Source of the DNA: Bacteroidales bacterium
GTDB lineage: Bacteria; Bacteroidota; Bacteroidia; Bacteroidales; UBA12077
Direction of reading: 5' to 3'
DNA length: 64,000 bases
NCBI GenBank assembly: GCA_016342685.1
Contig: JAEINU010000004.1
Coordinates: forward strand, 62,001 to 126,000
Part shown: piece by piece, positions 40,819 to 64,000 of the stretch
Position numbering within the stretch: position 1 is the stretch's first letter
Layout: each line of letters starts with the position of its first letter
Position numbers and translations under genes: made by a program
Notes under the pieces: generated by a model
Database searches by the model: none
Seen by the model: the letters and a program-made list of their open reading frames with translations, nothing else
What the model was told of the DNA's origin: nothing

Positions 40819-40884
40819 GTCATTCTGAGCTTGTCGAAGAATGCACTATACAAATAATAACATTTCGACAGGCTCAATATAACA
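40819..40884. repeat. interspersed family A hairpins, inverted pair
   Basis: The first copy reads GTCATTCTGAGCTTGTCG-AAGAATG (stem CATTCT / AGAATG). A second, opposite-oriented copy starts at 40861 (CATTTCGACAGGCTCAATAT). This is the leftmost member of the family in the window. It separates the convergent LuxE-like and C1 peptidase genes and may also terminate both. Confidence 0.85.
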
Positions 40885-40904
40885 TATAAGATTTCCTTAG
40901 ATTA

Positions 40905-42017
40905 TTATAAATCTAACTTTTTCTTTAAATCCTTTGGAATAGCATTTTTATGAACCATAATTGCCACCGTATGCAAACGCATAAATTCTTCCGACATATT
41001 TAAAAAACCTCCAAACTCGTTACTTTCTGTTCCCCACGAATTTTTTGTTTTATAATACATAACATCATTCTGATCTTTAACCAAACCAACAATATGCATT
41101 AAATGATCGTCTGTTACATTAAAGTTATTGTATTGTGCTTGTCTAAAATCAGCATCGATTGCTTTCTCTTTAATTGGATGATTTAAATGACTTTTTTCTT
41201 TGTCAGTTTCATCATCAACAACAGCAACATTGTTTTTATGAGAAAATCCTTTGTCGCTCACATCACCATCCCAAACAAAAGTATATCCTTCCATTAAAGA
41301 AAACTTCATAATATCCATTAACTCATCTAAGTGCACATTGTAATACTGATCTTGAGACCAATTATCCGGAATAAGTAGGGTCGATTGTTTGTAATATGGC
41401 ATATCTGTATAAGATGTAAGCTCAACATAATCGTTAATATTAATTCCTAAATCTTTAGCATAAGTTTGAGGAGTATAAGATTTTCCATCAATTTCAAAAG
41501 ATTCTGGATCCTCGCCTAAATAAATATCCAGTATTGCATTAAAAGCATTATACCATACATTGCTAGGGTTTTTAGCTTTTAAAACACCATCTAAAAAACT
41601 TGTTAATACAGCACTTAGTTCATTATGATTATGCTTCTCCGAATCATACATGCGTCCTAAGTATACACTTTCTGGAACAATTCCATGATCCTTTATCTCG
41701 TTTAGAACATCATGTGCCTGACCTCCTTGGCTAAAATTTGATTTACCATGCGTTTTAATGTAATTACTTGCTTTTTGCTCGTAAGCTTTTTTTACAAAAT
41801 ACATCTCCGATAAATCATACTCCGGTTTTCCCATTCTTATTAATTCACTTTCTAAAAATGAAACCGTAGAATAACACCAGCAAGTTCCGGTTCTATCCTG
41901 ACTTTTAACAGTTGAAACACCTAAATCTACAATCGATTTAAATTCATAACTTTCATCTTGAGCATTTACGATTGAAACACTTAAAAGAACTACTACAATA
42001 ATTATTAATCTTTTCAT
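40905..42017 (-). CDS. secreted C1-family cysteine peptidase
   Basis: I choose the ATG at 42017, which starts a clean Sec signal peptide (MKRLIIIVVV to VNAQ, 1-20) one base after the preceding gene's stop; the longer frame from 42065 puts 16 residues before it. The 370-residue protein matches bleomycin-hydrolase/aminopeptidase-C-like C1 enzymes. Gln40 and catalytic Cys46 lie in QDRTGTCWCYS, the histidine in DHLMHIVG and the asparagine in TKNSWG. It should be a periplasmic or exported peptidase. It is last in an operon with yraN, mmcQ/yjbR and DUF502 genes. Confidence 0.9.
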   Translation of the reverse strand: MKRLIIIVVVLLSVSIVNAQDESYEFKSIVDLGVSTVKSQDRTGTCWCYSTVSFLESELIRMGKPEYDLSEMYFVKKAYEQKASNYIKTHGKSNFSQGGQAHDVLNEIKDHGIVPESVYLGRMYDSEKHNHNELSAVLTSFLDGVLKAKNPSNVWYNAFNAILDIYLGEDPESFEIDGKSYTPQTYAKDLGININDYVELTSYTDMPYYKQSTLLIPDNWSQDQYYNVHLDELMDIMKFSLMEGYTFVWDGDVSDKGFSHKNNVAVVDDETDKEKSHLNHPIKEKAIDADFRQAQYNNFNVTDDHLMHIVGLVKDQNDVMYYKTKNSWGTESNEFGGFLNMSEEFMRLHTVAIMVHKNAIPKDLKKKLDL

Positions 42018-42018
42018 C

Positions 42019-42606
42019 TTAGTTATTTTTATCATTATCATAATTCGCAACACCTCCCGATACAATAAACTTCATAACATCGGCTGGTGGAGCATCTATT
42101 TTCTTAACATTTTCAACCGGGACAATAAATAGTTCTCCTGAAAAATTATAGGAGTGTGGGAAGTAAACAGCTACTTTGTTTCCAGACACTCCCAATTTTG
42201 AAACATCCGTTTGAGTCAAGAAACCAAACTTCTCTAAATTTGAAATTGTATTTACCTTAACCAGAACTGGTTGATTAAATTTCTTCTCTTTTCCAACAAA
42301 GGCAGTTAATAAATCTTTAATGGATGTATATACTACCTTTATTAATGGAACTTTATTTACTATGTGATTTACAATTCGCTTAATTGGCCTTGCAATAATT
42401 GTTTTACCTAATAAACCTAATAATGCCACCAATAAAAAAACAATTAAAAGGCTTAAGCCTGGAATATTAATATTAAAATAATCCGTAACCAAAGGCTTTA
42501 AAAGTTCGTCTAAAACTACAAATGTTTTATAAAGCACAAATATTGTAATCCCTAAAGGGGCAAGGTAAATTAATCCTTGAAAAAAATATCCTAATAATTT
42601 CTTCAT
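42019..42606 (-). CDS. DUF502 membrane protein
   Basis: The 195-residue protein has two membrane helices (about 8-30 and 48-72). A soluble domain follows with PLIKVVYTSIKDLLTAFVGKEKKFNQPVLV, the core signature of DUF502. The domain is widespread in bacteria and plants and its function is not settled. It sits between the MmcQ/YjbR-like and peptidase genes, 29 bases and 1 base away, so all are probably co-transcribed. Confidence 0.9.
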   Translation of the reverse strand: MKKLLGYFFQGLIYLAPLGITIFVLYKTFVVLDELLKPLVTDYFNINIPGLSLLIVFLLVALLGLLGKTIIARPIKRIVNHIVNKVPLIKVVYTSIKDLLTAFVGKEKKFNQPVLVKVNTISNLEKFGFLTQTDVSKLGVSGNKVAVYFPHSYNFSGELFIVPVENVKKIDAPPADVMKFIVSGGVANYDNDKNN

Positions 42607-42635
42607 CTTATTGCTCTAATAGATTTTAAATATCC

Positions 42636-42989
42636 CTATAAATTACCTAGCTCTTCTTTTTGTTTCTTTGTAAGAGAATTAAAGATTAAATCGTATGAAT
42701 GATCTATCAACTCATAAATTAACTTTTCTGGAACACTACCTTCTACAATTATAGTATTCCAATGTTTTTTGTTCATATGATAACCCGGAATAATATGTTC
42801 TGGATATTCCTCGCGAAGTTTAATTGTTCTTTCCGGATCACATTTTAGATTAACTCTGAATTCGCCTTCAATATCCGTTAAGGCAAACATTTTAATCACC
42901 TTAAAAACCAATGTTGTTTCATCAAAAGGGAATCCTTCTGTGGTTCCTTTTTTCGATAAGCAATAATTTCTAAAACCTTCTATATTCAT
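42636..42989 (-). CDS. MmcQ/YjbR-family protein
   Basis: The 117-residue protein begins MNIEGFRNYCLSKKGTTEGFPFDETTLVFKV, the CyaY-like start of the MmcQ/YjbR family. YHMNKKHWNTIIVEGSVP and an ELIDHSYDLI helix complete the fold. Family members were proposed to bind DNA because of their fold, but a firm role is lacking. It lies 8 bases after the yraN-like gene. Confidence 0.9.
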   Translation of the reverse strand: MNIEGFRNYCLSKKGTTEGFPFDETTLVFKVIKMFALTDIEGEFRVNLKCDPERTIKLREEYPEHIIPGYHMNKKHWNTIIVEGSVPEKLIYELIDHSYDLIFNSLTKKQKEELGNL

Positions 42990-42997
42990 GATATTTA

Positions 42998-43366
42998 CTA
43001 AGTTATTAAGCTTGCTTGGAAAGCATCCTCAATATGTTCAATTATTGTTTCGTTCGACAACAAAGATACTCCAATAATATCAAAGCGTGTTTCAAAGTCA
43101 ATATTAAACTCCTCGATATAAGCCTCTGTAGCCTTTATTATAAACTTTTGCTTATTAATTGTAACTGCCTCTTTCGGACTTTCAAAATACTCACTTGTTC
43201 TGGTTTTTACTTCCACAACCACCAATAGGTTATTTTTTTCCGCAATTATATCAATTTCATTTTTTCTAAATCGCCAGTTTATATGCCTTATTTTAAATCC
43301 ATTATCGACAAGAAATTTATTTGCTATTTCTTCTCCCTTTTTCCCTACCAGGTTGTGTTCTGCCAT
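42998..43366 (-). CDS. YraN/UPF0102 nuclease-fold protein
   Basis: The 122-residue protein has the restriction-endonuclease-like core seen in Holliday-junction resolvases: G-K-GEEIANKFL near the N-terminus, then RKNEIDIIAEKNNLLVVVEVKTR with the D-x-ExK pattern (D44, E-V-K near 52-54). UPF0102 proteins are near-universal in bacteria and their role is not well established. It is the first gene of the four-gene operon ending at the C1 peptidase. Confidence 0.92.
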   Translation of the reverse strand: MAEHNLVGKKGEEIANKFLVDNGFKIRHINWRFRKNEIDIIAEKNNLLVVVEVKTRTSEYFESPKEAVTINKQKFIIKATEAYIEEFNIDFETRFDIIGVSLLSNETIIEHIEDAFQASLIT

Positions 43367-43463
43367 TTTTTTAATTACTTTTGTAACCTTATTAATCTTA
43401 AGCCTGTAAGATACAATAGGTTTTGCAATTTAATCGTTTTATAAAGATAATTTATTATCCATT

Positions 43464-44096
43464 ATGGTAAACCTTGTAATTAGTTTTATACTGTTACTGT
43501 TTCCTCCTTTCAATAATCTTGGAACATTCGAAGGTCGTATCGAACTGGTTCAAGAAACACATTATGAAAAATCTTATTTTACCTATTTTATAAAAAACGA
43601 TAATGTTAGAATTGATGAATTTGATAGCGATCATCTATTAATTCAATCCTTAATTATAAAAATCAACGATGAACAGGTTTATATATTATGCCCTTCTAAA
43701 AAACTATATACTCAATTAACTCTTTCTGATTCTAAAAAGATGACTAGTGATAATTTTAAAATTATTAAAACGGAAAATTCAAGAATTGTAAATGGTTTTG
43801 ATTGTTATCAATGGAGAGTAAAAAATATTGAGCGAAATACAGAAGCTGCATATTGGGTTTCTCAAAACAACTTTTACTTTTTCGAAGATTTAATAAAATT
43901 GCTTAACCGAACCGATAAAACGTTTGAGTTTTTTGAGATTATTCCTGATTCTCAAGGATTCTTTCCAATGTTAAGCGTCGAAAGAACACTCCTTCGAAAA
44001 GAAAAACTCAGAACTTATGTTGTAGCTATAAATAATGAAATCCTTGACGAATCGAATTTTATTATTCCTCCAGAATACAAGCCGGTAGAAAATTAA
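43464..44096 (+). CDS. secreted protein, DUF4412-like
   Basis: The 210-residue protein has an N-terminal hydrophobic signal or anchor (2-16). The rest is rich in beta strands, with FEGRIELVQETHY, then IKNDNVRIDEF and MLSVERTLLRKEKLRTYVV. This is the pattern of DUF4412/LolA-like lipid-carrier beta-sheets in Bacteroidota. Family assignment is by eye and only moderate. It probably acts in the periplasm. Its end overlaps the convergent LD-carboxypeptidase gene by 4 bases. Confidence 0.7.
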   Translation: MVNLVISFILLLFPPFNNLGTFEGRIELVQETHYEKSYFTYFIKNDNVRIDEFDSDHLLIQSLIIKINDEQVYILCPSKKLYTQLTLSDSKKMTSDNFKIIKTENSRIVNGFDCYQWRVKNIERNTEAAYWVSQNNFYFFEDLIKLLNRTDKTFEFFEIIPDSQGFFPMLSVERTLLRKEKLRTYVVAINNEILDESNFIIPPEYKPVEN

Positions 44097-44995
44097 GATT
44101 TAAAAATTACTTTATCTGCTTCCACATGGAGCTCCGATTTATTTCCTAAAATAAGAGCATAGTTATTATCTATATGTCCAACCGGGAAATCATAGCAAAC
44201 CGGGAAATCATATTCAGCAACTGCATCCCTAATAATTTCATAAGCCGACTTACCAAAAGGAATAGGATTGTCATTCATTTTTGTCATTCCTCCAACAATT
44301 AAGCCTTTTAGATTCTCAAGTTTACCACTGTATTTCATATTCATCATCATACGATCGATGTGGTATAAATATTCATCGAGATCTTCCAAAACCAAAATTT
44401 TCCCGTCTGTTTCAATATCGTATTTAGTTCCCGAAACACTAAATAAAACGGATAAATTCCCCCCTATTAAATCAGCAGAAACCACGCCATTTCGATTAAA
44501 TTCCTGTGGTTTTATCGTATAAATATTTTGTTCTCCAAACAAAGTCTTTTTCAAAGTTTTTACTGCTTCGTTTTCCGATAAATCCTTTGGGAAATTAAAA
44601 GGCATTGTCCCATGAATCGACTTAACACCAAGATTCTGATTTAAATGCGCATGTAAAGCAGTAAGGTCACTATATCCAATAATCCATTTTGGATTCTCTA
44701 AGAATTTTGTAAAATCCAATAATTTCAAGGTTTTTACTGTTCCATATCCTCCTCGAGCTGCAATAATGGCTTTAACTTTTGGGTTATCCATCATTATCTG
44801 AAGATCTTCCGCTCGTTGCTCGTCTGTTCCAGCAAATTGTCTGTTTTTTGAGAATAGATTTTTTCCAAGTATAACTTCCAAACCCCATCGTTCAAAAACT
44901 TTTATCGAAGCTTCAATTTCTTCCATATAAATTTTTCTTGCAGGAGCTACGATTCCAATTTTATCACCTTTCTTTAAAAATGCAGGAGTTATCAT
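44093..44995 (-). CDS. LD-carboxypeptidase (S66 family)
   Basis: The 300-residue protein has the S66 features. The catalytic serine is in WIIGYSDLTALH. A glutamate lies in LEDLDEYLYHIDRMM, and the histidine in FPVGHIDNNYALILG completes the triad. MITPAFLKKGDKIGIVAPAR is the typical N-terminus. These enzymes remove the terminal D-alanine from murein tetrapeptides in the cytoplasm during cell-wall recycling. No signal peptide is present, in agreement. It lies divergent from metG. Confidence 0.93.
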   Translation of the reverse strand: MITPAFLKKGDKIGIVAPARKIYMEEIEASIKVFERWGLEVILGKNLFSKNRQFAGTDEQRAEDLQIMMDNPKVKAIIAARGGYGTVKTLKLLDFTKFLENPKWIIGYSDLTALHAHLNQNLGVKSIHGTMPFNFPKDLSENEAVKTLKKTLFGEQNIYTIKPQEFNRNGVVSADLIGGNLSVLFSVSGTKYDIETDGKILVLEDLDEYLYHIDRMMMNMKYSGKLENLKGLIVGGMTKMNDNPIPFGKSAYEIIRDAVAEYDFPVCYDFPVGHIDNNYALILGNKSELHVEADKVIFKS

Positions 44996-45062
44996 TTACA
45001 TATCGATTTAAATCAATGTAAAACTAAGTAATATTTATATGATGAAAAAAAATATTCCTTTG

Positions 45063-45070
45063 TATATTTG
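45063..45070 (+). promoter_or_regulatory. -7 element of metG promoter
   Basis: TATATTTG (TAnnTTTG), 42 bases upstream of the metG ATG. Confidence 0.45.
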
Positions 45071-45112
45071 TGCGATATTCAAGCGAATCAATAATAAGAG
45101 AGCAATATAAAC

Positions 45113-47161
45113 ATGAAAAATCCAAAGCGCTATTTAATAACATCGGCATTACCATATGCCAATGGCCCACTACATTTAGGACATATTGCAGGTGCATATT
45201 TACCAGCTGATATTTATGTTCGATATTTAAAATTAAAAGGAAATGATGTAGCATTTATTTGCGGATCGGACGAACATGGTGTTCCAATTACTTTGCGAGC
45301 AAGAAAAGAAGGTATTCAACCACAAGACGTTGTTGACAAGTACAATGGAATGATTAAAAAGGCTTTTGAAGAATTCGGAATTGCATTCGATATTTATCAT
45401 CGTACTTCTGACCCATTACACCATGAAACGGCTTCGGAATTTTTCAAAAACATGTACGAAAAAGGTGAATTTATTGAGAAAGAAGAAGATCAATTTTTTG
45501 ACGAACAAGAACAACAATTCTTAGCCGATAGATATATTATAGGTACTTGTCCAAAATGCGGATTCGAAGAAGCTTACGGCGATCAGTGCGAAAAATGTGG
45601 AACCAGTTTAAGCCCTCGTGAATTGATCAATCCAAAATCTAAATTAAGCGGAAATAACCCTGTACTAAAAACCACAAAACATTGGTATTTAGATTTAGAG
45701 AAATATCAAGGCGAATGGTTAGAAGAATGGATAGATAGTCATAAATCTGATTGGAAATCGAATGTTCATGGACAATGCAAATCTTGGTTAAATGCTGGAT
45801 TACAGCCAAGAGCGGTAACTCGCGATTTAGATTGGGGTGTCCCTGTTCCCGTTGAAGGTGCCGATGGAAAAGTTCTTTATGTTTGGTTCGATGCTCCGAT
45901 TGGATATATTTCGGCAACAAAAGCATGGGCTAAAGAAAACGGAAAAGATTGGAAAGATTACTGGCAAAGCGAAGATTCTAGTCTGATACATTTTATTGGA
46001 AAAGATAATATTGTTTTTCACTGCTTGATCTTTCCTGCAATGCTTAAAGCTCATGGTGATTACATTCTACCAACAAATGTTCCAGCAAACGAATTTTTGA
46101 ATTTAGAAGGCGATAAACTTTCTACATCGAGAAATTGGGCTGTTTGGATTCACGAATATTTAGAAGATTTTCCTGAAAAACAAGATGTTTTACGTTATAC
46201 AATTTGCGCTAACTCTCCTGAGCAAAAAGATAACGATTTTACTTGGAAAGATTTCCAAACAAGAAATAATAGTGAGTTAGTTGCCATATTCGGAAACTTT
46301 GTAAATCGCACATTAGTTCTTACTCATAAATATTACGAAGGAATAGTTCCTGAACGTGGAGAACTTACTGATTTCGACAAAGAAACATTAGCTGAAATTC
46401 CAGCGATTAAAAAAAGACTTGAAAAAAGTATCGAAAGTTACCGATTCCGTGAGGCGATAAAAATTGCAATGGATTTAGCTCGTTTAGGGAATAAATATTT
46501 AGCCGATACCGAGCCTTGGAAAGTTATTAAAACAGACGAAGAGCGTGTAAAAACAATCATGAATATTTCTCTTCAGATTACAGCAGCTTTATCTGTTATA
46601 ATGGAACCATTTTTACCTTTCACGACAGTAAAACTTAGAAATTTCTTAAATATAGAAAAACTAGATTGGGAATCTGTTGGCAGCAGCGACCTAATTCCCG
46701 TTGGACATACAATAAATAAAGCGAGTCTTCTTTTCGAGAAAATTGAAGATGATGTAATCGAAAAACAAGTTCAAAAACTACTGGATTCAAAAAAAGCAAA
46801 CGAGTTGGAAAATAAAAAAGCCGAACCTGCAAAAGATAATATCACATACGATGATTTTGTAAAGATGGACATTCGTGTAGGAACGATCCTCGAAGCAGAA
46901 AGAGTTCCTAAAACCGATAAATTATTAAAACTTAAAATTGATACTGGGATTGACCAACGAACTGTTGTTTCAGGAATTGCAGTTGATCACAAACCTGAAG
47001 ATATTATAGGTAAGCAAGTAAGCATTTTAGTTAACTTAGAACCAAGAAAAATTCGTGGAATTGAATCGCAAGGAATGATTTTAATGGCTCAGGATGCAAG
47101 CGGAAAATTAAATTTTGTAATTCCAGATGATAAAACCACAAATGGTTCAGGAATAAGTTAA
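45113..47161 (+). CDS. metG: methionine--tRNA ligase
   Basis: The 682-residue synthetase has the class I HIGH-type motif [15 protein letters not shown] near residue 17. A zinc knuckle CPKCGF...CEKCG lies near 145-162, and the KMSKS equivalent KLSTSRNW is near 335. An anticodon-binding helical domain follows. The C-terminal tRNA-binding OB-fold of about 110 residues begins at [17 protein letters not shown] and dimerises the enzyme in many bacteria. It charges tRNA-Met. A run of interspersed hairpins fills the 375 bases downstream. Confidence 0.97.
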
Positions 47162-47176: not shown

Positions 47177-47299
47177 CACTTCGACATTCTTCGACAAGCT
47201 CAGAACTTTCTCATGAGCGAAGCGAGTAATGACATTGCTGGTGTGAACTAAGATACAAAACAAAAAAGTTGTTCATATTTCGACAAGCTCAATATGACA
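47177..47299. repeat. interspersed hairpins, family A mixed with family C
   Basis: Family A pieces (CTTCGACAAGCTCA) occur at 47190-47203 and 47278-47299, the latter with an ATATTTCG...CGA..ATATGAC arrangement. Between them lies a third motif (CTTTCTCATGAGCGAAGCG, then AGTAATGACA), here called family C. They fill the space after metG together with the element at 47398. Confidence 0.75.
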
Positions 47300-47397: not shown

Positions 47398-47501
47398 GTC
47401 ATCCCCAACTTGATTGGGGATCTAATAATTAATTAAAATAACTTTAATATGGAGATTCCCTTTTTACTCGCTTCGCTCATGAGAAAGTTCAAGGGAATGA
47501 C
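47398..47501. repeat. interspersed family B element carrying a family C insert
   Basis: It starts GTC plus hairpin ATCCCCAA-CTTGA-TTGGGGAT and ends GGGAATGAC. A reverse-oriented family C motif (ACTCGCTTCGCTCATGAG) lies inside at 47466-47483. The whole has terminal inverted repeats GTCAT / ATGAC. With the previous element it leaves no room for a gene in the metG-sigma gap. Confidence 0.8.
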
Positions 47502-51207: not shown

Positions 51208-51443
51208 ATCATCCCCTCCCGTTATTTATCGGGATGATTGGGAATCTCATAACATAATTATAAAAATTGAGATTCCGGGTCTTCGCCCGGAATGGCATAT
51301 CACATACTTATGGTTTTTGTTCTCTTCTGCTATAAGAATTATTCCTCAATATGAAATCTCTTTACGATAGATTCCCGCTTTATTCGCTAAACTCATGAAA
51401 TAAGTTCGCGAGAACTTTTCTCACGATTGAAATGAGTAATGAC
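51208..51443. repeat. degenerate interspersed elements after the STN gene
   Basis: The region carries several related hairpins: CCCG...CGGG-type at 51216-51236, ATTCCGGG / CCCGGAAT at 51272-51293 and a family C-like stretch with ATGAGTAATGACA at 51431-51444. None encodes a plausible protein. Confidence 0.65.
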
Positions 51444-51456
51444 AATATACTTGGAT

Positions 51457-51526
51457 GTCATTTGGCACTTGATGCAAAATCTAATTATAAAATAAATAAT
51501 AGATTTCCGATTTCTCGGAAATGACA
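51457..51526. repeat. interspersed family B element, complete
   Basis: It runs from GTCATTT to AAATGAC with inner hairpins (CTTGA loop on the left, ATTTCCGA-TTTC-TCGGAAAT on the right) and an AT-rich centre. With neighbours it fills the 600-base gap before the second surface-repeat gene. Confidence 0.82.
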
Positions 51527-52990: not shown

Positions 52991-53021
52991 TGCAAACGAC
53001 TGTCTAAAATGTTAGAAAAAT

Positions 53022-53149
53022 GTCATTACTCACTTTGTTCGTGAGAATAGTTCCCTTGAACTTTCTCATGAGCGATGCGAGTAAAAAGGGAATCTCTTAT
53101 CAATACTTAAACAACCAGACATGAGATCCCCAATCAAGTTGAGGATGAC
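53022..53149. repeat. interspersed elements, families C and B
   Basis: A family C inverted pair (TCATTACTCACTTTGTTCGT and CTTTCTCATGAGCGATGCGA) is followed by a reverse family B hairpin (GATCCCCAATCAAGTTGAGG, then ATGAC). It fills the space between the second surface-repeat gene and the TonB receptor gene. Confidence 0.8.
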
Positions 53150-55565: not shown

Positions 55566-55582
55566 TTTTTCTTTTGATTCCT

Positions 55583-55643
55583 ACACTTCGACAAGCTCAG
55601 TGTGACATTAACATATTGTCATCTTGAGCCTGTCGAAAGATAG
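55583..55643. repeat. interspersed family A hairpins, inverted pair
   Basis: CACTTCGACAAGCTCAGTG, then TGACA, and the facing copy GTCATCTTGAGCCTGTCG-AAAGAT. It lies between the convergent TonB receptor and ispG genes and may terminate both. Confidence 0.85.
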
Positions 55644-55670: not shown

Positions 55671-57530
55671 CTAATCTTCCCAATCTCCATTATCCTTAAT
55701 AAGCTGAACAAGTTCATCAACAGCATTTTCCTCGGGAATGTTTTTCTTTACTACTTCCTTGTTTTTATACAGAGTGATTTTTCCTGGCCCTGCTCCTACA
55801 TAACCATAATCTGCATCGGCCATTTCGCCTGGACCATTAACAATGCAACCCATGATTCCAATCTTAAGATTTTTAAGATGCGATGTCTTTTCTCGTATTA
55901 TTTGAGTTGTTTTCTGTAAATCGTAAAGTGTACGACCACATCCGGGACATGAGATATATTCTGTTTTTGTTGTTCGAACTCGGCTTGCTTGCAAAATACC
56001 AAAAGAAGTATTTACACTACTTTCCTCATTAATAGCACCTTCATTATCAATCCAGATTCCATCACCAAGCCCATCCAAAAACAAACCTCCAAAATCACTT
56101 GCCGATTTCAATTGCAAATCCTCTAAATCTTTTTCTTTATATGATCTTTTTACAATAACAGGATTTTTACACTCGGCACTGATTAATTTAAAAAATGCAG
56201 CTCTTTGATCTGCAAAACCATTCTTGTTATTTGTTTCGAGAACAAAAACGATGTCTTGTCGACTTTTAATTTTCTGAAGATCTTCTATTTGCAAATCATT
56301 GTTATGTATTTTAATAAAATTTATTCCCGATGATTGCTTATCCGAGAAATAGAAATTATTAATTGATGTGAACATTGGATAGATGTAACTTTCATCAAAA
56401 TCTTGCTGCTCCCATGTTGTTTCATCAACAATAAATTTATAATCCTTATTCAGGTTTCCATAAAACAACTTATCAGGAATATATACAAATTCCGGTTTTA
56501 GCCCATTGTCAATTTCTGATTTACCGACAACAACAGGAACATTGTTACCCCCAATATTTAAAACTTGTGTTGATTTTCTTTGGGTATATTCAAAAAAGTT
56601 CATTGCAATACTATCTTGCTCTTTTATTTCTTTATGATCCGTTCTTTCAGAAAAATAATCAACTAACTTTTTAGCAACCGGAATTTCTTTTTCAGGTGCT
56701 TCGGTAAGTGAAACACGAATCGTATCACCAATTCCATCGGCGAGTAATGCACCAATTCCTACTGCCGATTTTATTCTACCATCTTCACCTTCGCCAGCCT
56801 CTGTAACGCCTAAATGCAATGGGAAATTCATTTTCTCTTCGTTCATTTGAGCAAGCATTAAACGATTTGCCTGAACCATTACCCGTGTATTACTCGATTT
56901 TAGCGAAACAACAATATTCAGAAAACCCTCACGAACACAAATGCGCAAAAACTCCATCGCCGATTCAACCATTCCATTTGGAGTATCGCCATATTTACTC
57001 ATTATACGATCCGAAAGCGAGCCATGATTTACGCCAATTCGAAGAGCCGTATTATTCTTTTTACAAATTTCAATTAAAGGAATTAATTTTTCTCCTATTT
57101 TATTGATCTCTGATTGATATTCTATATCGTTAAATTCAAGCCTTGAAAAATCAGCTCGTTTATCCACAAAATTTCCTGGGTTTATTCTCACTTTCTCAAC
57201 CAATTCTGCAGATGCAAATGCAGCTTTTGGATTAAAATGAATATCTGCTGCAAGAGGCGTGTCAAATCCTGCATCACGAATTCCACTTTTAATGTTCTTT
57301 AGGTTTTCAGCTTCGGCAACCCCCTGAGCAGTTATACGAACCAAATCGCCACCAGCTTTAATAATACTAAGCGACTGACTAATTGTTTCCTCTGTTTTTA
57401 GTGTGTTCGTACTTGTCATGGATTGGATTTGAATAGGATTATTTCCCCCTATTTTAATATTTCCAATCTGAACTGCTTGTGTTTTAAATCTATTGTATTG
57501 AAATAAATTAATGTAGTTTTCGTACTTCAT
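55671..57530 (-). CDS. ispG: (E)-4-hydroxy-3-methylbut-2-enyl-diphosphate synthase, long form
   Basis: I use the ATG at 57530 (619 residues, MKYENYINLF); the open frame continues upstream through interspersed repeats and is not credible. IspG reduces MEcPP in the MEP isoprenoid pathway. The TIM-barrel starts VQIGNIKIGGNNPIQIQSMT. The 4Fe-4S cysteines are in CPGCGRTLYDL and MGCIVNGPGEMADADYG at the C-terminus. The extra central domain (about 270-480) is that of the long bacterial/plastid-type enzyme found in Bacteroidota. A short degenerate copy of its first codons lies upstream beyond a repeat cluster. Confidence 0.95.
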   Translation of the reverse strand: MKYENYINLFQYNRFKTQAVQIGNIKIGGNNPIQIQSMTSTNTLKTEETISQSLSIIKAGGDLVRITAQGVAEAENLKNIKSGIRDAGFDTPLAADIHFNPKAAFASAELVEKVRINPGNFVDKRADFSRLEFNDIEYQSEINKIGEKLIPLIEICKKNNTALRIGVNHGSLSDRIMSKYGDTPNGMVESAMEFLRICVREGFLNIVVSLKSSNTRVMVQANRLMLAQMNEEKMNFPLHLGVTEAGEGEDGRIKSAVGIGALLADGIGDTIRVSLTEAPEKEIPVAKKLVDYFSERTDHKEIKEQDSIAMNFFEYTQRKSTQVLNIGGNNVPVVVGKSEIDNGLKPEFVYIPDKLFYGNLNKDYKFIVDETTWEQQDFDESYIYPMFTSINNFYFSDKQSSGINFIKIHNNDLQIEDLQKIKSRQDIVFVLETNNKNGFADQRAAFFKLISAECKNPVIVKRSYKEKDLEDLQLKSASDFGGLFLDGLGDGIWIDNEGAINEESSVNTSFGILQASRVRTTKTEYISCPGCGRTLYDLQKTTQIIREKTSHLKNLKIGIMGCIVNGPGEMADADYGYVGAGPGKITLYKNKEVVKKNIPEENAVDELVQLIKDNGDWED

Positions 57531-57589
57531 ATGAATGTATTCTGATAATGAAGGTAAAATTAATAAAAAGCTTGAAATAGTTGTCAATA

Positions 57590-57785
57590 TTTCGATAAAC
57601 TCAATATGACAACTCCTTATTACTGTCATGATGTCCCGATAGCCATCGGGAGCCGAAGTATGTAGGCCTAAATGACCAAACAAAAATAAGAGGCATTCCC
57701 GTGAACTTTTCTCATGAACAAAGTGAATAAAACAGAAATCTCAATAAAGGAAAGAAGAGATCTCCGATCGAGTCGGAGATGACAA
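57590..57785. repeat. interspersed elements between two copies of the ispG start
   Basis: A family A-like copy (ATTTCGATAAACTCAATATG), a CCCGATAGCCATCGGG hairpin, a family C-like piece (ACTTTTCTCATGAACAAAG) and a reverse family B hairpin (ATCTCCGATCGAGTCGGAGAT). They lie between the functional ispG start and its degenerate upstream copy. Confidence 0.8.
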
Positions 57786-57838: not shown

Positions 57839-57892
57839 GTAGAAAAAGCTTTTTACAAAGTGGTAAAAAAAAGAATAACTTATAATTTTTTA

Positions 57893-57962
57893 ACACACTT
57901 CGACAAGCTCAGTGTGACATAATATTTTATGAAACCTGTCATGCTGAGCTTGTCGAAGCATG
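57893..57962. repeat. interspersed family A hairpins, inverted pair
   Basis: CACTTCGACAAGCTCAGTG, then TGACA, and facing GTCATGCTGAGCTTGTCG-AAGCATG (stem CATGCT / AGCATG). It lies between the ispG leader copy and gldA. Confidence 0.85.
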
Positions 57963-58938: not shown

Positions 58939-58950
58939 CGGTTGCCTTTT

Positions 58951-59022
58951 GTCATCTCCAACTTAATTGGAGATCTTATTCTATTTATATCAAGATGAGA
59001 TTCCCTTTAGCAAGGAAATGAA
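58951..59022. repeat. interspersed family B element between gldA and its duplicate end
   Basis: It starts GTC plus hairpin ATCTCCAA-CTTAA-TTGGAGAT and ends with a degenerate right half (GAGATTCCCTTTAGCAAGGA, then AATGAAC). It lies directly between the gldA stop and the decayed copy of the gldA 3' end. Confidence 0.8.
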
Positions 59023-59037
59023 CGTTTTAATCCATTT

Positions 59038-59176
59038 AAGAAAAAACTGACCGATCCAAAGTTTATCAGCAGAGGATATCCACCTAATATTTTCAGTTTT
59101 GGCGTTAAATCTAATCTTGCTGTACTTTCAATGCAGAAAAAGTTTAGAAGAGGTTTCTCAGGTACTCACAAAATAA
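59038..59176 (+). pseudogene. decayed tandem copy of the gldA 3' end
   Basis: The stretch matches the last ~130 bases of gldA with a one-base frameshift and an 8-base deletion: CCAAAGTTTATCAGCAGAGG, then ATATCC, and later TTTCAATGCAGAAAAAG. It reaches the stop codon: the copy ends CAG GTA CTC ACA AAA TAA beside gldA CAG GAG TTG ACC CAA TAG. It is too short and broken to encode protein. Confidence 0.82.
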
Positions 59177-59196
59177 TCAAGTAAAACTAACTAAAT

Positions 59197-59262
59197 GTCA
59201 TTCCGCACTTGATGCGGAATCTATTTAAAATAAATAATTAGATTCCCGCTTTCGGGAATGAC
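59197..59262. repeat. interspersed family B element, complete 66-base copy
   Basis: GTC plus ATTCCGCA-CTTGA-TGCGGAAT on the left, an AT-rich centre, and GATTCCCG-CTTT-CGGGAATGAC on the right. Terminal inverted repeats GTCATTCC / GGAATGAC. A clean example of the family. Confidence 0.88.
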
Positions 59263-59287
59263 AAATCAAAATTTAATTTCCTTGAAA

Positions 59288-59347
59288 AAGGGAATCTTTT
59301 TATAAGATATTGCGATTCCCTAGATTCCCAATCTAGTTGGGAATGAC
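59288..59347. repeat. interspersed family B element, reverse hairpin
   Basis: The right end carries ATTCCCAA-TCTAG-TTGGGAAT followed by GAC, and the left part AAAGGGAATC is degenerate. From here to metK only the metK promoter is seen. Confidence 0.72.
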
Positions 59348-59446
59348 AATAAGATATTTGTACCACTACTTTTTTGATTTAATAATATTATCTAAAAGCT
59401 TTTTTTCTTTTTTGATAATTGATAAATAATAATTATTTATTGAACG

Positions 59447-59478
59447 TTGGTAATTGTTAACTGAAATCATTATTTTTG
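59447..59478 (+). promoter_or_regulatory. Bacteroidota-type promoter of metK
   Basis: TTG at 59447-59449 and TATTTTTG at 59471-59478 (TAnnTTTG) with a 21-base spacer, 39 bases upstream of the ATG. The leader is too short for a SAM riboswitch. Confidence 0.68.
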
Positions 59479-59517
59479 GTCGTTTTTATTTTTAATCATT
59501 ATAAATTAAATTCTATT

Positions 59518-60780
59518 ATGGGATATTTATTCACATCTGAATCTGTCTCTGAAGGTCATCCTGACAAGGTTGCTGATCAAATATCGGATGCTTTATTAGA
59601 CGAATTTTTACGTCGCGATCCTGAGTCAAAAGTTGCTTGTGAAACACTAGTAACAACTGGCTTAGTAGTATTAAGCGGAGAAGTTCGTACGAATGCATAT
59701 ATCGATGTTCAGGAAATTGCCCGAAGAGTTATTAAACGAATTGGTTATACCAAGCAAGAGTATCGATTTGATTCAGAATCCTGTGGTGTTATTTCTACTA
59801 TTCACGAACAATCACCTGATATCAATCAAGGAGTTGTACGTGAAAAAGAAGAAGATCAGGGTGCTGGCGATCAAGGAATGATGTTCGGTTATGCTAGCAA
59901 AGAAACTGACGATTACATGCCTATTTCATTGGTTTTATCGCATGTTTTATTACAAGAACTTGCTAAAATCAGACGAGAAGGTAAAGAAATGACTTATCTA
60001 CGTCCGGATTCAAAATCTCAAGTAACTATTGAGTATAACGATAATAATGAGCCACTTAAAGTTCATACCATTGTTGTTTCGACACAACATGATGATTTTG
60101 ACGAGGAAAAAGCAATGCTCGAAAAAATTAAGAATGATGTAAAAACTATTCTAATTCCAAGAGCAAAAGCACGTTTCACTGAGAGAGTTCAGAATCTTCT
60201 TACCGATGATTACATTTTACATGTAAATCCAACAGGTAAGTTTGTAATTGGTGGACCTCACGGAGATACTGGTTTAACTGGGCGTAAAATTATAGTTGAT
60301 ACTTACGGAGGAAAAGGTGCTCACGGTGGTGGTGCATTCTCAGGAAAAGATTCATCTAAAGTTGACCGTTCTGCTGCTTATGCTGCTCGTCATATTGCAA
60401 AAAACATTGTTGCTGCAGGAATTTCAGACGAAGCTTTAGTTCAAGTTGCATATGCTATTGGTGTTGCGGAGCCTGTTGGATTGTATATCAATACTCATGG
60501 AACATCGAAAGTTAATTTAACCGATGGTGAAATTGCTGAAAAGATCAATACTATATTTGACATGCGCCCTGCTGCAATAGTAAAAAGATTTGGTTTGAAA
60601 AATCCAATTTTTGAAGAAACAGCAGCTTATGGTCATATGGGACGTGATTTTAAAACGAAGAAAGTTGAAATTCTTGAAGGTAGCAATGGACATGAGAAAT
60701 CAGTTCAAAAAGAAGTTGAATTCTTTGCATGGGAAAAACTAGACTATGTAGAGAAAATTAAGTCTGCATTCGGAGTTTAA
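59518..60780 (+). CDS. metK: S-adenosylmethionine synthetase
   Basis: I use the ATG at 59518 (420 residues, [17 protein letters not shown]); a longer frame starts inside the promoter. MetK makes SAM from ATP and methionine. Motifs are [16 protein letters not shown] (the first ATP/Mg region), [12 protein letters not shown] (signature hexapeptide region) and [16 protein letters not shown]. The length is slightly above the E. coli enzyme, as in other Bacteroidota. It is a single gene with a clear promoter and terminator. Confidence 0.97.
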
Positions 60781-60798
60781 CATTTTCAAAATATAGAT

Positions 60799-60837
60799 TA
60801 AAAGCCATATTCAATTTGATGTATGGCTTTTTTTTAT
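60799..60837 (+). terminator. intrinsic terminator of metK
   Basis: A 10-bp stem AAAAGCCATA / TATGGCTTTT with a 12-base loop and a T-run. Confidence 0.9.
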
Positions 60838-60864
60838 TTATTTCGGGATAAATAACCCAAACCT

Positions 60865-62013
60865 ATGATTAAGATTGTAACAATTATCGGCGCTCGCCCA
60901 CAAATAATTAAAGCTGCTGCATTAAGTAGAGCAATTAAAAATTCATTTTCGGATAAAATTCAAGAAGTTATTGTTCATACTGGTCAGCATTACGACCACA
61001 ATATGTCTGAAGTTTTTTTCGAAGAACTTGGCATACCAAAACCGAACTACAATCTGAATATAGGATCTTTAAGTCATGGAAAGCAAACGGCCAAAATGAT
61101 TGAAGGGATTGAGGAAATTCTAATTACAGAAAATCCACAAGCAATTGTTTTATATGGAGATACCAATTCAACTTTAGCCGGAACAATAGCAGCATCTAAA
61201 ATTCACGTGCCTATTGTTCACATTGAAGCCGGATTACGCTCTTTTAACAAGAAAATGCCCGAAGAGATTAACCGAATAATGTGTGATCACACCTCAACAC
61301 TGCTTTTTTCCCCAACACAAACTGGAATTAAAAACTTGCAAAAAGAAGGTTTTGATCTTGGCAACAAAGCACCAATTTCTAATGATAATCCTGGCGTTTT
61401 TCATTGCGGAGATATTATGTTTGATAATTCTCTATACTTTTCTGATATCGCAGAACAAAAATCAGATATCCTATCAAAGTTTAATTTATCTAACTCCAAT
61501 TATATTTTATCGACTTTACACAGAAATAATAACACGGATGACCCTGAACGATTAACCGCTATTTTCTCATCTTTAATTAAAATCTCAGAAAAACATCACC
61601 TTAAAGTTATCTTGCCACTTCACCCAAGAACCAAAAAAATCCTTGCTAAAAACTTATCGAAAGATGTTTATGATAAGACGATCAATTCTGAATTTATACA
61701 AATTATTGAACCGGTATCATTCTTAGAGATGATACAATTAGAAAAAAATGCATCTCTTGTTATGACAGATTCTGGTGGTGTTCAGAAAGAAGCATACTTT
61801 TTTAACAAACCTGTACTTGTTTTAAGATCTGAATCGGAATGGATAGAAATAATAGAAGTTGGTGCCGGTATTATTTGCGACGCAAATGAGAATAAAATTC
61901 TAGATTCGTTCCAAAAATTATATCAAAATAAAGAATTAAAGTTCGATTCTATTTTTGGTGATGGAAAAGCCGCTGAATTTATTTGTCAGAAAATGCTTGA
62001 AAATTTTAGCTGA
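60865..62013 (+). CDS. wecB: UDP-N-acetylglucosamine 2-epimerase (non-hydrolysing)
   Basis: The 382-residue protein begins with the GT-B-like Rossmann start VTIIGARPQIIKAAALSRA, followed by HTGQHYDHNMSEVFFEELGIP. HIEAGLRSFNKKMPEEINR and TDSGGVQKEAYF near the C-terminus are the active-site signatures. It converts UDP-GlcNAc to UDP-ManNAc for capsule, O-antigen or exopolysaccharide. With the upxY- and wza-like genes downstream it marks the start of a polysaccharide locus extending beyond the window. Confidence 0.94.
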   Translation: MIKIVTIIGARPQIIKAAALSRAIKNSFSDKIQEVIVHTGQHYDHNMSEVFFEELGIPKPNYNLNIGSLSHGKQTAKMIEGIEEILITENPQAIVLYGDTNSTLAGTIAASKIHVPIVHIEAGLRSFNKKMPEEINRIMCDHTSTLLFSPTQTGIKNLQKEGFDLGNKAPISNDNPGVFHCGDIMFDNSLYFSDIAEQKSDILSKFNLSNSNYILSTLHRNNNTDDPERLTAIFSSLIKISEKHHLKVILPLHPRTKKILAKNLSKDVYDKTINSEFIQIIEPVSFLEMIQLEKNASLVMTDSGGVQKEAYFFNKPVLVLRSESEWIEIIEVGAGIICDANENKILDSFQKLYQNKELKFDSIFGDGKAAEFICQKMLENFS

Positions 62014-62103
62014 AGTAATTTCCAACTAAATTAATCAATGCTTTTTAAATCTTAGAAGCTAAAAATTTCCTACTTTTAACTATCATTTATATTAGGGGCT
62101 GTC

Positions 62104-62598
62104 GTGGAAAAAAATTGGTACGCTTTATATACGAAATCACGTTCAGAAAAAAAAGTTAATCTAGAACTTACGAATAAGGGCATTGAATCCTATCTCCCCT
62201 TAGAAAAAAAACTAAAAATTTGGAGCGATCGAAAAAAATGGGTTGATGAACCTTTTATACGATCGTATGTTTTTGTACATATAGAAATTGATGATTTTCA
62301 TAATGCCTTAAACACCCCAGGAGTGGTTAGTGTAATTAAATTTGGTGGAAAACCTGCCAAAGTGCAAGATGATCATATAAAGATTATTCAAAAGATACTT
62401 TCAAGTAACGAGGAATTCGAAATTAGTACTGAAAGTTTTGAGCAAGGAGAGAAAATTGAAATTACGAGAGGCAGTATGAAAGGTTTTTTTGGAGAAATGG
62501 TTCATCACTTAAATAAATATAAGGTTTTGATTCGCATTTCATCAATAAATCAGAACCTATTAATAAGAATAAATCCTTCTTTTTTAAGAAAGGTTTAG
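62104..62598 (+). CDS. UpxY-type NusG-family transcription antiterminator
   Basis: The 164-residue protein begins at a GTG codon (62104; no ATG is nearby) with WYALYTKSRSEKKVNLEL, the NusG N-terminal domain. FIRSYVFVHIE and TPGVVSVIKFGGKPAKV are typical, and a C-terminal KOW-like segment (GEKIEITRGSMKGFFGEM) follows. UpxY proteins prevent premature termination of polysaccharide operons by acting on the leader. Here the next gene lies 414 bases downstream, behind several hairpins. It is single between wecB and the export gene. Confidence 0.9.
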   Translation: MEKNWYALYTKSRSEKKVNLELTNKGIESYLPLEKKLKIWSDRKKWVDEPFIRSYVFVHIEIDDFHNALNTPGVVSVIKFGGKPAKVQDDHIKIIQKILSSNEEFEISTESFEQGEKIEITRGSMKGFFGEMVHHLNKYKVLIRISSINQNLLIRINPSFLRKV

Positions 62599-62708
62599 TT
62601 AATTTTGAATAAATTGCCCTTAACTCAATTGGGGCAGGAACTTTAGGCTTTTTCGGACACTAAAAAATGTGACTGAAGAAGCGGAGCTATGCCAAGTTCA
62701 AATGTAAA

Positions 62709-62881
62709 GTCATGCTGTCCCGATAGCTATAGGAAATCGAAGTATGAATAGTAAAACAAAAAGTTCTCCCTGTCATTTCCTACTTGACAGAAAATCATAC
62801 AAAAAAACAATGTCATACTGAACCTGTCGAAGTATGAATAGTAAGAACTAATAATTAACCCTTCGACAAGCTCAGGGTGAC
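62709..62881. repeat. interspersed elements between upxY and the export gene
   Basis: The region holds a CCCGATAGCTATAGG-type hairpin and a degenerate family B start (GTCATTTCCTACTTGACAG). Family A copies follow: one with stem CATACT / AGTATG, and reverse CCCTTCGACAAGCTCAGGG. A short tail GTATGAATAGTA occurs twice. In this 414-base gap I see no gene. Confidence 0.78.
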
Positions 62882-63012
62882 AATAAAATTTATTCTTAGA
62901 AAAAATCTTATTTTCAATTCTTAAAAAAACAAGAATAAATAAAAAGTAGTAATTTGTTAATTGAAGTATTGTCAATTGGTCATTGTTAATTGAAAACAGT
63001 AAAAACAAAGAA

Positions 63013-63798
63013 ATGAAAGTAAAAATAAAGCACATTATTATAATAGCACTTGCAACTTTTATGCTGGCTTCATGTAATTCTTACGAGAAACTTACATATT
63101 TACAAGATATTGAGGAAACAGGAACATCTTCAGTTTTCGAAAAAAATAAACCAGGATATCAAATACAAGCAGGTGATTTGCTTTATGTTCAGATAATTAC
63201 AGAGAATCAGGAAATCAATCAATTATTTAATCCATTTACTTCACAGGCATCATCCCAAAATTTAAGAGCTGAAAGTATGTTTTACACAAGCTATTTGGTA
63301 AATGATTCAGGTTATATTGAAATGCCTTTATTGGAAGAAATTTTTGTTTCTGGATTAAATATAGATCAGGTGCAAGATTCAATTAAACAAAGAGCATATC
63401 GGTTCTTAAAAAATCCACAAGTGATTGCCAAATTAGCCAGTTTTAAATTTACTGTTTTGGGCGAAGTTAAGGCACCTGGAGTAAAACAAGTTACTGCCAA
63501 TCAGGTTAATATAATGGAAGCATTGGCCTATGGAGGAGATATTTCTTATAATGGAAATCGAAAAAAAATATTGTTATTAAGGCAAAGCGATCAGGGAACA
63601 CAAACCTATCGACTTAATCTTGCTAAAGGAAATATTATCGATTCCGAAATGTATTACATTATGCCAAACGATATTATTTATGTTGAACCATTAAAGTCAA
63701 CTTTGTTTAGAGAACAAGCTTCCGATTATGTTTTTGTAATTAGCGCATTGTCTTCGACATTAACTGCAGTTGCACTAATTCTTAATTTGATGAAATAA
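63013..63798 (+). CDS. Wza-like polysaccharide export lipoprotein
   Basis: I use the ATG at 63013 (261 residues), which starts the signal peptide; the earlier ATG at 62983 adds ten polar residues. Lipobox LASC (C20) is followed by NSYEKLTYLQDIEE. The polysaccharide export domain contains YQIQAGDLLYVQII, and a SLBB-like domain contains FTVLGEVKAPGVKQV. Near the C-terminus a hydrophobic segment (about 235-258) could be an outer-membrane helix as in Wza. It forms an outer-membrane channel for polysaccharide, and its inner-membrane partner (Wzc-like) is expected downstream of the window. Confidence 0.92.
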   Translation: MKVKIKHIIIIALATFMLASCNSYEKLTYLQDIEETGTSSVFEKNKPGYQIQAGDLLYVQIITENQEINQLFNPFTSQASSQNLRAESMFYTSYLVNDSGYIEMPLLEEIFVSGLNIDQVQDSIKQRAYRFLKNPQVIAKLASFKFTVLGEVKAPGVKQVTANQVNIMEALAYGGDISYNGNRKKILLLRQSDQGTQTYRLNLAKGNIIDSEMYYIMPNDIIYVEPLKSTLFREQASDYVFVISALSSTLTAVALILNLMK

Positions 63799-63813
63799 AG
63801 GTGTTAAAAATTT

Positions 63814-64000
63814 GTTATCCTAAGCTTGTCGAAGGATGGATAGTAAATTTTTAAGAGAAGGAATGGTCATACTTCGACAGGCTCAGTATGACAATAAAAC
63901 ACTAAGTATTTAATATGTTAACAAATGTCTTCACACTTCGACGAGCTAAGTGTGACAAAAAAATTTGCAAGAAATGTCATCCTGAGCCTGTCGAAGGGTG
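63814..64000. repeat. interspersed family A hairpins at the right edge
   Basis: Four copies with different stems: ATCCT / AGGAT, CATACT / AGTATG, CACACT / AGTGTG and CATCCT / AGGGTG around the loop GAGCYTGTCG. The cluster runs to the window end. No gene is seen after 63798. Confidence 0.85.

Follow-up and report, generated by a model that had tools for sequence, protein, structure and literature searches.

Two families of tagged hairpins

The stretch considered here (the window) comprises 64,000 nucleotides from a Bacteroidales bacterium, positions 62,001 to 126,000 of contig JAEINU010000004.1 (assembly GCA_016342685.1; genome 4.77 Mb; guanine-plus-cytosine content of the window 30-38% in 4-kb steps). 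It carries two families of short hairpins, A and B, and 461 bp past its right end, within a tandem array of A hairpins, starts the gene for a small protein with a single GIY-YIG nuclease domain. The two families are probably non-autonomous copies of repetitive extragenic palindromes (REPs) with a CGTC or TGTC tag, each tied to its own clade of small single-domain GIY-YIG proteins that would move them.

Read outward from the tag, family A has the plan TGTC-ATTCTGAG-CTTGT-CGAAGAAT and family B the plan TGTC-ATCCCCAA-CTTGA-TTGGGGAT; common to both are the TGTC tag, eight stacked positions, and a CTTG-type loop, the last letter of which is T in A and A in B in nearly all copies. An initial annotation of this DNA had described at least two hairpin families, with conserved loops. 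Both families are present: the stems that it named occur in the window (A: CATTCT at 40819+, CATGCT at 57938+, CATACT at 62812+ and 63892-, CACACT at 57918- and 63956-; B at 47398+, 58951+, 59197+, and 57783-), and the exact A loop GAGCTTGTCGA has 107 copies in the genome, against two for the reversed control. The loop of A is conserved as claimed, but not all of the invariant stretch is loop: its GAG...CGA is a tandem G.A/A.G mismatch at stem positions 6-7, closed by G-C, so that the distance from tag to loop is equal in A and B.

Among 170 hairpins picked by tag, loop core, and outer pairs alone, with the inner positions ignored, this tandem mismatch is found in 133 (closed by a Watson-Crick pair in 127 and by a wobble pair in 6); 3 more have tandem mismatches with other closings, and the inner positions are fully Watson-Crick in 18. 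In a second A loop class, GAGTTTATCGA, C and G have changed jointly to T and A, with a similar range of stems. The fixed parts are the tag, the tandem mismatch, and the apical loop; the outer five to six pairs need only pair.

A set of 174 family A elements (145 distinct in arms and loop) was taken from 337,849 bp, the window plus 49 stretches of the source genome, with either at most one mismatch each in loop and tag or a loop with two mismatches and an exact GTCA; pairing was ignored, repeated 71-nt contexts were taken out, and at least one member, with poly-A arms, is plainly spurious. GTC is exact in 156 of the 174 and preceded by T in 159 (a tag within one mismatch was a selection criterion); the first stem pair is A-T in 158, and the second is variable. 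Family B has an 8-bp stem, mostly a CTTGA loop, and the tag TGTC; family A has a stem of 8-9 bp and a loop of 4-5 nt only with the tandem mismatch counted as stacked. Predicted DNA folding energies are -2.9 and -4.4 kcal/mol for A and -7.4 and -8.2 kcal/mol for B, from a programme that leaves G.A mismatches unpaired. Hairpins of 8 bp with a GTCA tag, which take in some chance and A-type ones, stand at 49 of 1108 GTCA sites (4.4%), against 1.3% or less for the 23 other orderings of these letters.

Within the window, matches to the loop GAGCTTGTCG with at most one mismatch number 13 against 1.23 expected, as many being found in none of 100 shuffles. Over the initial 40.8 kb the hairpin scan detected neither family, apart from one chance-like match at 27220. 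The copies in the remainder are listed by position and strand:

40819..40843 (+): family A hairpin, stem CATTCT/AGAATG; tags-outward dimer with 40859..40883
40859..40883 (-): family A hairpin, stem TATATT/AATGTT, loop GAGCCTGTCGA
47274..47298 (-): family A hairpin, stem CATATT/AATATG
47398..47421 (+): family B hairpin ATCCCCAA-CTTGA-TTGGGGAT, TGTC tag
51457..51480 (+): family B hairpin, one position unpaired, ATTTGGCA-CTTGA-TGCAAAAT
51503..51525 (-): family B-like hairpin ATTTCCGA-GAAA-TCGGAAAT
53126..53149 (-): family B hairpin, one wobble, ATCCTCAA-CTTGA-TTGGGGAT
55582..55606 (-): family A hairpin, stem CACACT/AGTGTA; tags-inward dimer with 55618..55642
55618..55642 (+): family A hairpin, stem CATCTT/AAGATA, loop GAGCCTGTCGA
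57586..57610 (-): family A hairpin, paired-change loop GAGTTTATCGA, stem CATATT/AATATT
57760..57783 (-): family B hairpin ATCTCCGA-CTCGA-TCGGAGAT
57894..57918 (-): family A hairpin, stem CACACT/AGTGTG; tags-inward dimer with 57938..57962
57938..57962 (+): family A hairpin, stem CATGCT/AGCATG
58951..58974 (+): family B hairpin ATCTCCAA-CTTAA-TTGGAGAT
59197..59220 (+): family B hairpin ATTCCGCA-CTTGA-TGCGGAAT
59324..59347 (-): family B hairpin ATTCCCAA-CTAGA-TTGGGAAT
62812..62836 (+): family A hairpin, stem CATACT/AGTATG, loop GAACCTGTCGA
62857..62881 (-): family A hairpin, stem CACCCT/AGGGTT
63814..64000: leftmost part of the array that surrounds the nuclease gene, with A hairpins at 63814-63838+, 63868-63892-, 63932-63956-, and 63976-64000+

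Upstream of the same gene as the B hairpin at 57760..57783, some related species carry other B stems, mostly fully paired.

Paired variation and arrangement of the copies

Over five stem pairs of the 174 elements, 91.1% of cells are Watson-Crick, compared with a mean of 67.6% and a maximum of 71.4% in 1000 re-dealings of the 3' arms; all four pair types are present at pair 3. The result is repeated in other Bacteroidia (146 elements from 80 loci, 81.8% against 52.3% re-dealt, maximum 57.1%) and, with query-identical elements removed, in 92 elements from 80 loci of named records (84.3% against 57.6% shuffled; these are 80 of at least 108 loci, some from two congeners). The proposals that the stems covary and that the elements follow a REP-like logic, in which pairing is kept while stem letters vary, were therefore well founded. 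The accompanying claim that paired changes are kept holds across copies and only in part for individual loci. In 43 pairs of hairpins from matching gene neighbourhoods of related species, the stems are identical in 17; one pair differs on one arm in 10 (7 of these between Watson-Crick and G.T) and on both arms in 2 (one of them to a mismatch); at least two pairs differ in 14, which may be separate insertions into one intergenic region. Since single differences are mostly one-sided (10 of 12), most fully paired differences lie between subfamilies of copies and are not caught in the act.

Pairing could also be upheld mainly by arm-to-arm correction, through template switching within the hairpin, with no need for recognition by a protein. 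The almost complete pairing of subfamily stems would fit such a process, as would seven related-locus pairs that differ in exactly two base pairs with both arms changed each time. Correction should, however, have erased the tandem G.A/A.G mismatch as well, which is kept in the 133 of 170 hairpins counted above (paired or wobble closing), and most recent single changes have escaped correction (7 of 10 as G.T); as the main cause it is quite unlikely.

Mismatches on the tag strand are G.T more often than A.C in the source genome, where this comparison was first run on the five stem pairs (27 against 10, distinct), and in four congeners (27 to 8, distinct). The excess in the source genome is on the tag strand regardless of the direction of the neighbouring gene (15:2 where the tag is sense, 17:5 where it is antisense), and points to a tag strand folded while single-stranded, not to the mRNA of the neighbouring gene.

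Selection on RNA structure, with the hairpins kept as terminators or mRNA 3' ends, predicts the reverse in antisense copies. Gene 3' ends are indeed preferred: with open reading frames (ORFs) called by length alone, 55 of the 174 A copies lie between convergent genes, 95 between tandem genes, and 9 between divergent genes, where intergenic bases amount to 8027, 23289, and 6403, respectively (a further 12 lie inside an ORF and 3 at locus edges). Some A dimers also lie within a longer terminator-like palindrome, GAGGNTGTCCAAAAAG...CTTTTTGGACANCCTC. The tag strand is nevertheless sense to the gene in 69 cases and antisense in 81, without the orientation of intrinsic terminators, and A copy number ranges from 0 to 95 within one genus; maintenance as RNA structures is very unlikely. 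The palindrome around A dimers was seen at loci L322, L326, L327, L097, L100, and L119; over some 130 bp, L322 and L327 look nearly identical by eye, and the palindrome may accordingly move together with its dimer as one unit.

Dimers of A in the source genome have their tags outward in 23 cases, inward in 37, and in the same direction in 11; in the 80 named-record loci 33 are outward and 19 inward. Within the genus, the commonest gap in tags-inward dimers is exactly 20 nt (13 of 18 in G215, 6 of 14 in G210, 5 of 9 in G204, 3 of 8 in G214, 10 of 38 in the source genome), and in G215 the spacer is partly shared; this gap was found in none of the 19 tags-inward dimers of named-record loci. That dimers are exact copies of one unit was rejected for the source genome, in which spacer lengths are alike and spacer letters hardly so; spacer similarity against shuffled similarity (with its maximum) was 0.563 against 0.519 (0.544), 0.496 against 0.478 (0.495), and 0.517 against 0.492 (0.533). 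The same stem is found in both partners in 2 of 60 dimers, with 8.2 expected (P 0.006; the dimers are non-independent).

A small GIY-YIG nuclease gene as the probable partner

The initial annotation had pointed to a Y1 enzyme, a REP-associated tyrosine transposase (RAYT), and had proposed a search for a small transposase gene that carries the hairpins. When run, this search gave no such Y1 gene but a small GIY-YIG nuclease gene that does carry them. The source genome has two near-identical RAYT genes (contig C9, 199256-199735 and 246797-247276; one was checked, NF047646, 100 bits), which are framed by a hairpin unlike A and B, TAGCACAAGCGRGACGCTTGCGCCA, with A hairpins alongside; at 199256-199735 a pair of A hairpins, one truncated, lies between two inverted copies of TAGCACAAGCGRGACGCTTGCGCCA.

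Elsewhere, A or B stands on both flanks of none of 38 RAYT genes (a complete ORF could be set in 38 of 83 loci), and 54 Y1 loci from other genomes yielded one A-like hairpin, at L050, whose loop was different. RAYT presence does not track A copy number in the genus: G202, G203, G211, and G212 have strong RAYT matches and no A, and G201 (86% complete) has 7 A copies and no Y1 match. The Y1 proteins of A-rich genomes are of several unlike kinds by motifs, and the tag is TGTC, not the GTAG or GTGG of RAYT-associated REPs. Every one of the 20 class genomes with at least 5 A copies does have a Y1 match, against 143 of 198 overall, and A hairpins adjoin both RAYT copies of the source genome; given the unframed RAYT genes and the other hairpin around the source genome's own, A and B as ordinary REPs, or as REP doublets forming hairpins (REPINs), moved by a RAYT are extremely improbable, and RAYT was rejected as partner.

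Among the recurrent neighbours of A copies in the source genome, none of the clusters shown is of mobile type; with other genomes and phyla added, a small GIY-YIG gene emerged within 1 kb of A copies at six loci (L358 and L388 not inspected singly). A hairpins lie on both sides of the gene in two Ignavibacteriaceae, one Nitrospinaceae, one Flavobacteriaceae, one Cloacimonadota record, and congener G216. The GIY-YIG domain (PF01541) scores 60.5-68.1 bits in all four proteins checked, against a cut-off of 22.6. The enzyme that carries the hairpins appears to be this nuclease of about 100 residues, predicted from its domain, and not a RAYT.

The source genome has exactly one GIY-YIG match at an expectation value (E) of 1e-8 (C4:126464-126745). 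The gene encodes 102 amino acids on the + strand at what would be 64461-64769 of the window (1498-1806 of L481; offset +62963). In the surrounding array, 166-bp tandem units of three A hairpins each start inside the window at about 63.87 kb and run on to the gene (L481 904-1499), with more A hairpins downstream. The ATG lies 6 nt after the tag of an A hairpin, and the stop codon TGA is part of the TGAC (tag complement) of the next; upstream, the closest hairpin lies on the - strand, with one on the + strand 128 nt off. A copies crowd around this gene: of the 107 places 100 were listed, 18 of which are no more than 31 kb away, with 1.30 expected, and the densest place on any other contig holds 10 copies.

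When GIY-YIG genes were found by protein similarity alone, 14 of the 36 high-scoring ones and 3 of the 22 that scored lower had A or B on each side, tags outward. The same layout was seen in 10 of 228 ORFs from A-bearing loci of the source genome, in 1 of 78 neighbour ORFs, and in none of the 38 RAYT genes (Fisher p for the 14 of 36: 5e-8, 1e-7, and 8e-6, respectively). The usual layout has a + hairpin before the gene and a - hairpin after it, tags outward, and in 8 of 58 genes the end lies 24 nt inside the 3' hairpin. A strict scan for tagged hairpins with the G.A mismatch disallowed found them on both flanks of 11 of 58 GIY-YIG genes and of none of 80 neighbours. Inverted similarity between the flanks exceeds all 100 shuffles in 26 of 53 GIY-YIG genes, compared with 2 of 99 neighbours; 27 of the 53 have none by this measure. 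Some genes without A or B bear other hairpins of the GAG...CGA plan, such as TGTCACTTC-GAGCGAAGTCGA-GAAGTG on both sides of L478 and GTCATTGC-GAGYGTARCGA-AGCAAT at L526.

At E 1e-8, GIY-YIG matches occur in 110 of the 198 class genomes and in 21 of the 39 relatives. Among 30 class genes fetched, A-type hairpins lie on both flanks in 12 of 16 from genomes with at least 3 A copies (one with a variant loop) and in none of 14 from genomes with fewer. Of the 29 genomes with at least 3 A copies, 19 have a match at E of 1e-21 or better; for all 198 genomes the figure is 48 (p 3e-7, counted by hand with the E cut set after the list was viewed and kinship uncorrected).

Hairpin type follows nuclease clade. 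In a tree of 56 proteins, built from a short alignment with the B clade sampled from the genus of the source genome only and with labels (A, B, other) assigned by the analyst, all 19 A-labelled rows fall in one clade and all 9 B-labelled rows in the other; label changes number 19 against 30.1 when shuffled, as low a number being found in none of 200. The tree includes five added named proteins and omits 7 of 58 GIY-YIG rows (L499, broken; L505, L506, and L514, very long; L511, L521, and L522, a further short kind), none of which has A or B at both flanks. In this sample, A goes with one GIY-YIG clade and the B-type or CGTC hairpins with another.

In a plasmid collection, 33 records match the B-associated protein (Sinorhizobium, Azospirillum, Neisseria, Sphingobium, Rhizobium, Shinella, and others) and 21 the A-associated one, the 54 rows being 50 records (4 in both lists). 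Sixteen loci were examined, 15 of the 33 from varied organisms plus Bacillus subtilis yazA as a contrast: CGTC hairpins lie on both flanks in 9, on one flank in 2 (S. meliloti and Photobacterium), and on neither in 5 (Sinorhizobium C101, Rhizobium tumorigenes, Spirosoma, Planktothrix, and the vertically placed yazA). Both-flank hairpins start with CGTC or TGTC-AT in A. lipoferum, N. gonorrhoeae, Shinella (two), Rhizobium, Neorhizobium, and Aeromonas; those of Novosphingobium and Sphingobium are CGTC-GC and CGTC-AC, with 8 of 9 positions paired. The 5' + hairpin is 23 nt from the gene in five of the 16 loci, and the tail after the hairpin is cca in most and cta, ccg, ccc, or ttg in some. In the Planktothrix agardhii plasmid (L561), where CGTC hairpins were not found, the GIY-YIG gene lies between an MmeI-type restriction gene and DISARM drmA.

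In A. lipoferum the nuclease gene forms a cassette between sufB and sufC with a CGTC hairpin pair at each end, and sufB-sufC lacks the cassette in A. ramasamyi, A. oryzae, and Azospirillum sp. B510, the flanks being 95.7-96.6% alike. The cassette is present or absent at one site in close relatives, as is a mobile element. In S. meliloti the GIY-YIG gene lies beside CGTC hairpins between gltA and lpxB, where Sinorhizobium K101 has, by eye, a lone CGTC-like hairpin.

GIY-YIG domains occur in homing endonucleases, and free-standing GIY-YIG homing endonucleases are selfish nuclease genes inserted between host genes. The gene considered here could be of this kind, landing on tagged palindromes that something else spreads; a homing nuclease that used the repeats merely as landing sites would yield similar flanks. 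The lone hairpin of K101 speaks for this, A copies persist in genomes without a clade-A gene, and the B-clade protein weakly touches a group I intron endonuclease model (E 9e-4, below cut-off). In contrast to free-standing homing endonucleases, however, the gene has its own terminal hairpins and many gene-less copies in the genome. Homing also has to contend with the tracking of nuclease clade by hairpin type, with the regular orientation and distances at both gene ends, and with the crowding of copies around the source genome's gene while no other mobile-type gene recurs among the clusters shown; it is possible, though not probable.

Several observations weigh against movement of the hairpins by the nuclease. 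A housekeeping ATPase adjoins A copies more often (8 loci) than the nuclease does (6 loci). Of the 29 class genomes with at least 3 A copies, 10 have no match at E 1e-21: four have none even at 1e-8 (G064, 12 copies; G080, 44; G110, 4; G164, 3), and six have lower-scoring matches only (G014, 32; G058, 32; G060, 3; G148, 38; G181, 13; G188, 11). The A-rich congeners G204, G210, G214, and G215 likewise have only lower-scoring genes, while congeners G205 and G209 have high-scoring genes and no A. A high-scoring gene stands without adjoining A in G144 (7 copies), G005, and G194 (3 each), and with A on one side only in G036 (4 copies). The source genome has B copies, yet its sole GIY-YIG match is of the A clade. 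Among three sampled genomes whose nuclease carries a different hairpin, G081 has copies of that hairpin (5 in 140 kb, 3 of them one tandem), G128 barely any (2 loop matches in 82 kb), and G194 none in 120 kb. The G.T excess is also absent from other Bacteroidia (18:24) and from the named-record loci (10:18); restoring it by dropping stem pair 5 would be a post hoc choice.

Under the favoured reading, in which each clade moves its own hairpins, the nuclease would recognize the tag strand as a folded hairpin through the tag, the tandem G.A mismatch, and the loop, so that the stem would have only to pair. It may then nick or cut at the hairpin, or where a palindrome is extruded elsewhere. Through repair or replication, the break would receive a copy of the hairpin unit, which may or may not include the gene; palindromes already present near the ends of genes would often be the landing sites. 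Subfamilies whose stems differ yet pair would arise because only pairing copies can be recognized again, and older copies would decay, mainly by G.T steps.

Weaker evidence on presence and absence, for hairpins alone, comes from the orthologue of the gene at 55674-57683 of the window, which has adjoining hairpins in its own species and four congeners and none in 13 others with a match; some of these 13 loci end short there and the neighbouring gene is not always the same. A Y1-like gene adjoins this orthologue in congeners G210 (contig C64), G204 (C43), G207 (C46), G205 (C367), G214 (C122), and G200 (C28), possibly a domesticated transposase; the Y1 matches of the source genome all lie on a contig other than that of 55674-57683.

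Relation to known repeats and wider occurrence

REPs with a CGTC tag have been described in five phyla as elements that 'apparently lack a dedicated transposase', their mobilization being left open; they take in the Neisseria dRS3 repeat and two Rickettsia RPE repeats, and the carriers named include A. lipoferum, S. meliloti, S. chlorophenolicum, and Neisseriae, with no linked transposase found (Di Nocera et al., 2013; PMC3733652). As that text describes them, they resemble family B in the C/TGTC tag, the 8-bp stem starting with AT, the 5-nt loop, and stem variation by complementary pairs (PMC3733652). The differences from the elements described in PMC3733652 are that B of the source genome is without the CCA tail, mostly being followed by CT; that the fixed tandem G.A/A.G of family A has no counterpart in the text description, figures aside; and that a GIY-YIG nuclease is linked to the repeats here, partly in the same taxa, framing being found at the 9 of 16 loci given above. 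Tags-outward dimers predominate in CGTC REPs and not in A (23 outward, 37 inward), for which reason A is classed here as a variant and not as an ordinary member. The word GIY is absent from the main text of PMC3733652, and among the literature matches listed no title or abstract opening links GIY-YIG proteins with REPs, within a scope that mostly leaves aside subscription journals and preprints.

RAYT-REP systems (REPtrons and REPINs) are alike in tagged hairpins, dimers, a framed small gene of nuclease type, and many gene-less copies; they differ in having an HUH/Y1 enzyme instead of GIY-YIG and GTAG or GTGG instead of TGTC or CGTC, and the stems here vary widely within one genome (PMC3733652; PMC6006769). 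Single-domain GIY-YIG proteins of the UPF0213 family (PDB 1zg2 and 1ywl; Bacillus yazA) have the same domain and similar length (E 5e-18 to 1zg2), but no tagged hairpins were seen at the Bacillus subtilis yazA locus, between trmNF and rsmI.

It is rather likely that a single phylum-spanning class of mobile elements is involved, in which a GIY-YIG nuclease, not a transposase, would spread tagged palindromes, loop and clade would co-evolve, and one enzyme family would stand behind the CGTC REPs (Neisseria dRS3 and rhizobial), the GAG...CGA hairpins of Bacteroidota, Ignavibacteria, Nitrospinota, and Cloacimonadota, and the GTCATTGCGAG type. With a nuclease gene that is framed by CGTC repeats and missing from the corresponding site of relatives, mobilization becomes open to bench testing. 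If the reading is correct, bacterial intergenic space is filled with palindromes by a second enzymatic route besides RAYTs, proteins annotated only as 'GIY-YIG nuclease family protein' acquire a working role, and the variable stem letters beside a fixed tag, mismatch, and loop are accounted for.

The exact 26-mer TGTCACACTGAGCTTGTCGAAGTGTG occurs, among the matches listed (at least 108 stretches), in Bacteroidota, Ignavibacteria, Calditrichota, Nitrospinota, Zixibacteria, Sericytochromatia, and Cloacimonadota, and also in bins labelled Rickettsia typhi and Burkholderiales, which are taken as misassigned. The bin labelled Rickettsia typhi, CAMDMO01, contains many A hairpins (L368, L384, L387, L390, L400, L410, L414, L443, and L460) and is most likely a misassigned metagenome bin. 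Some predicted proteins end in translated hairpins (HPSTSSG, LRQAQHD, or LSLSKD; L416, L138, L207, L192, and L370), and such ends will mimic conserved tails in databases.

A further repeat family of the window, with TCATGAGCGAAGCGAGTAATGACA in direct and inverted layout at 47203-47236, 47452-47497, 51402-51451, and 53014-53096, is probably another tagged hairpin with a long loop. The A-like hairpins at 57625-57662 and 62709-62746 have a second hairpin as their loop (TCCCGATAGCCATCGGGA between GTCATGAT and AGTATG). The 2381-residue ORF at 26833-33978 (-) contains diverged internal repeats of 300 nt at 29698-32097.

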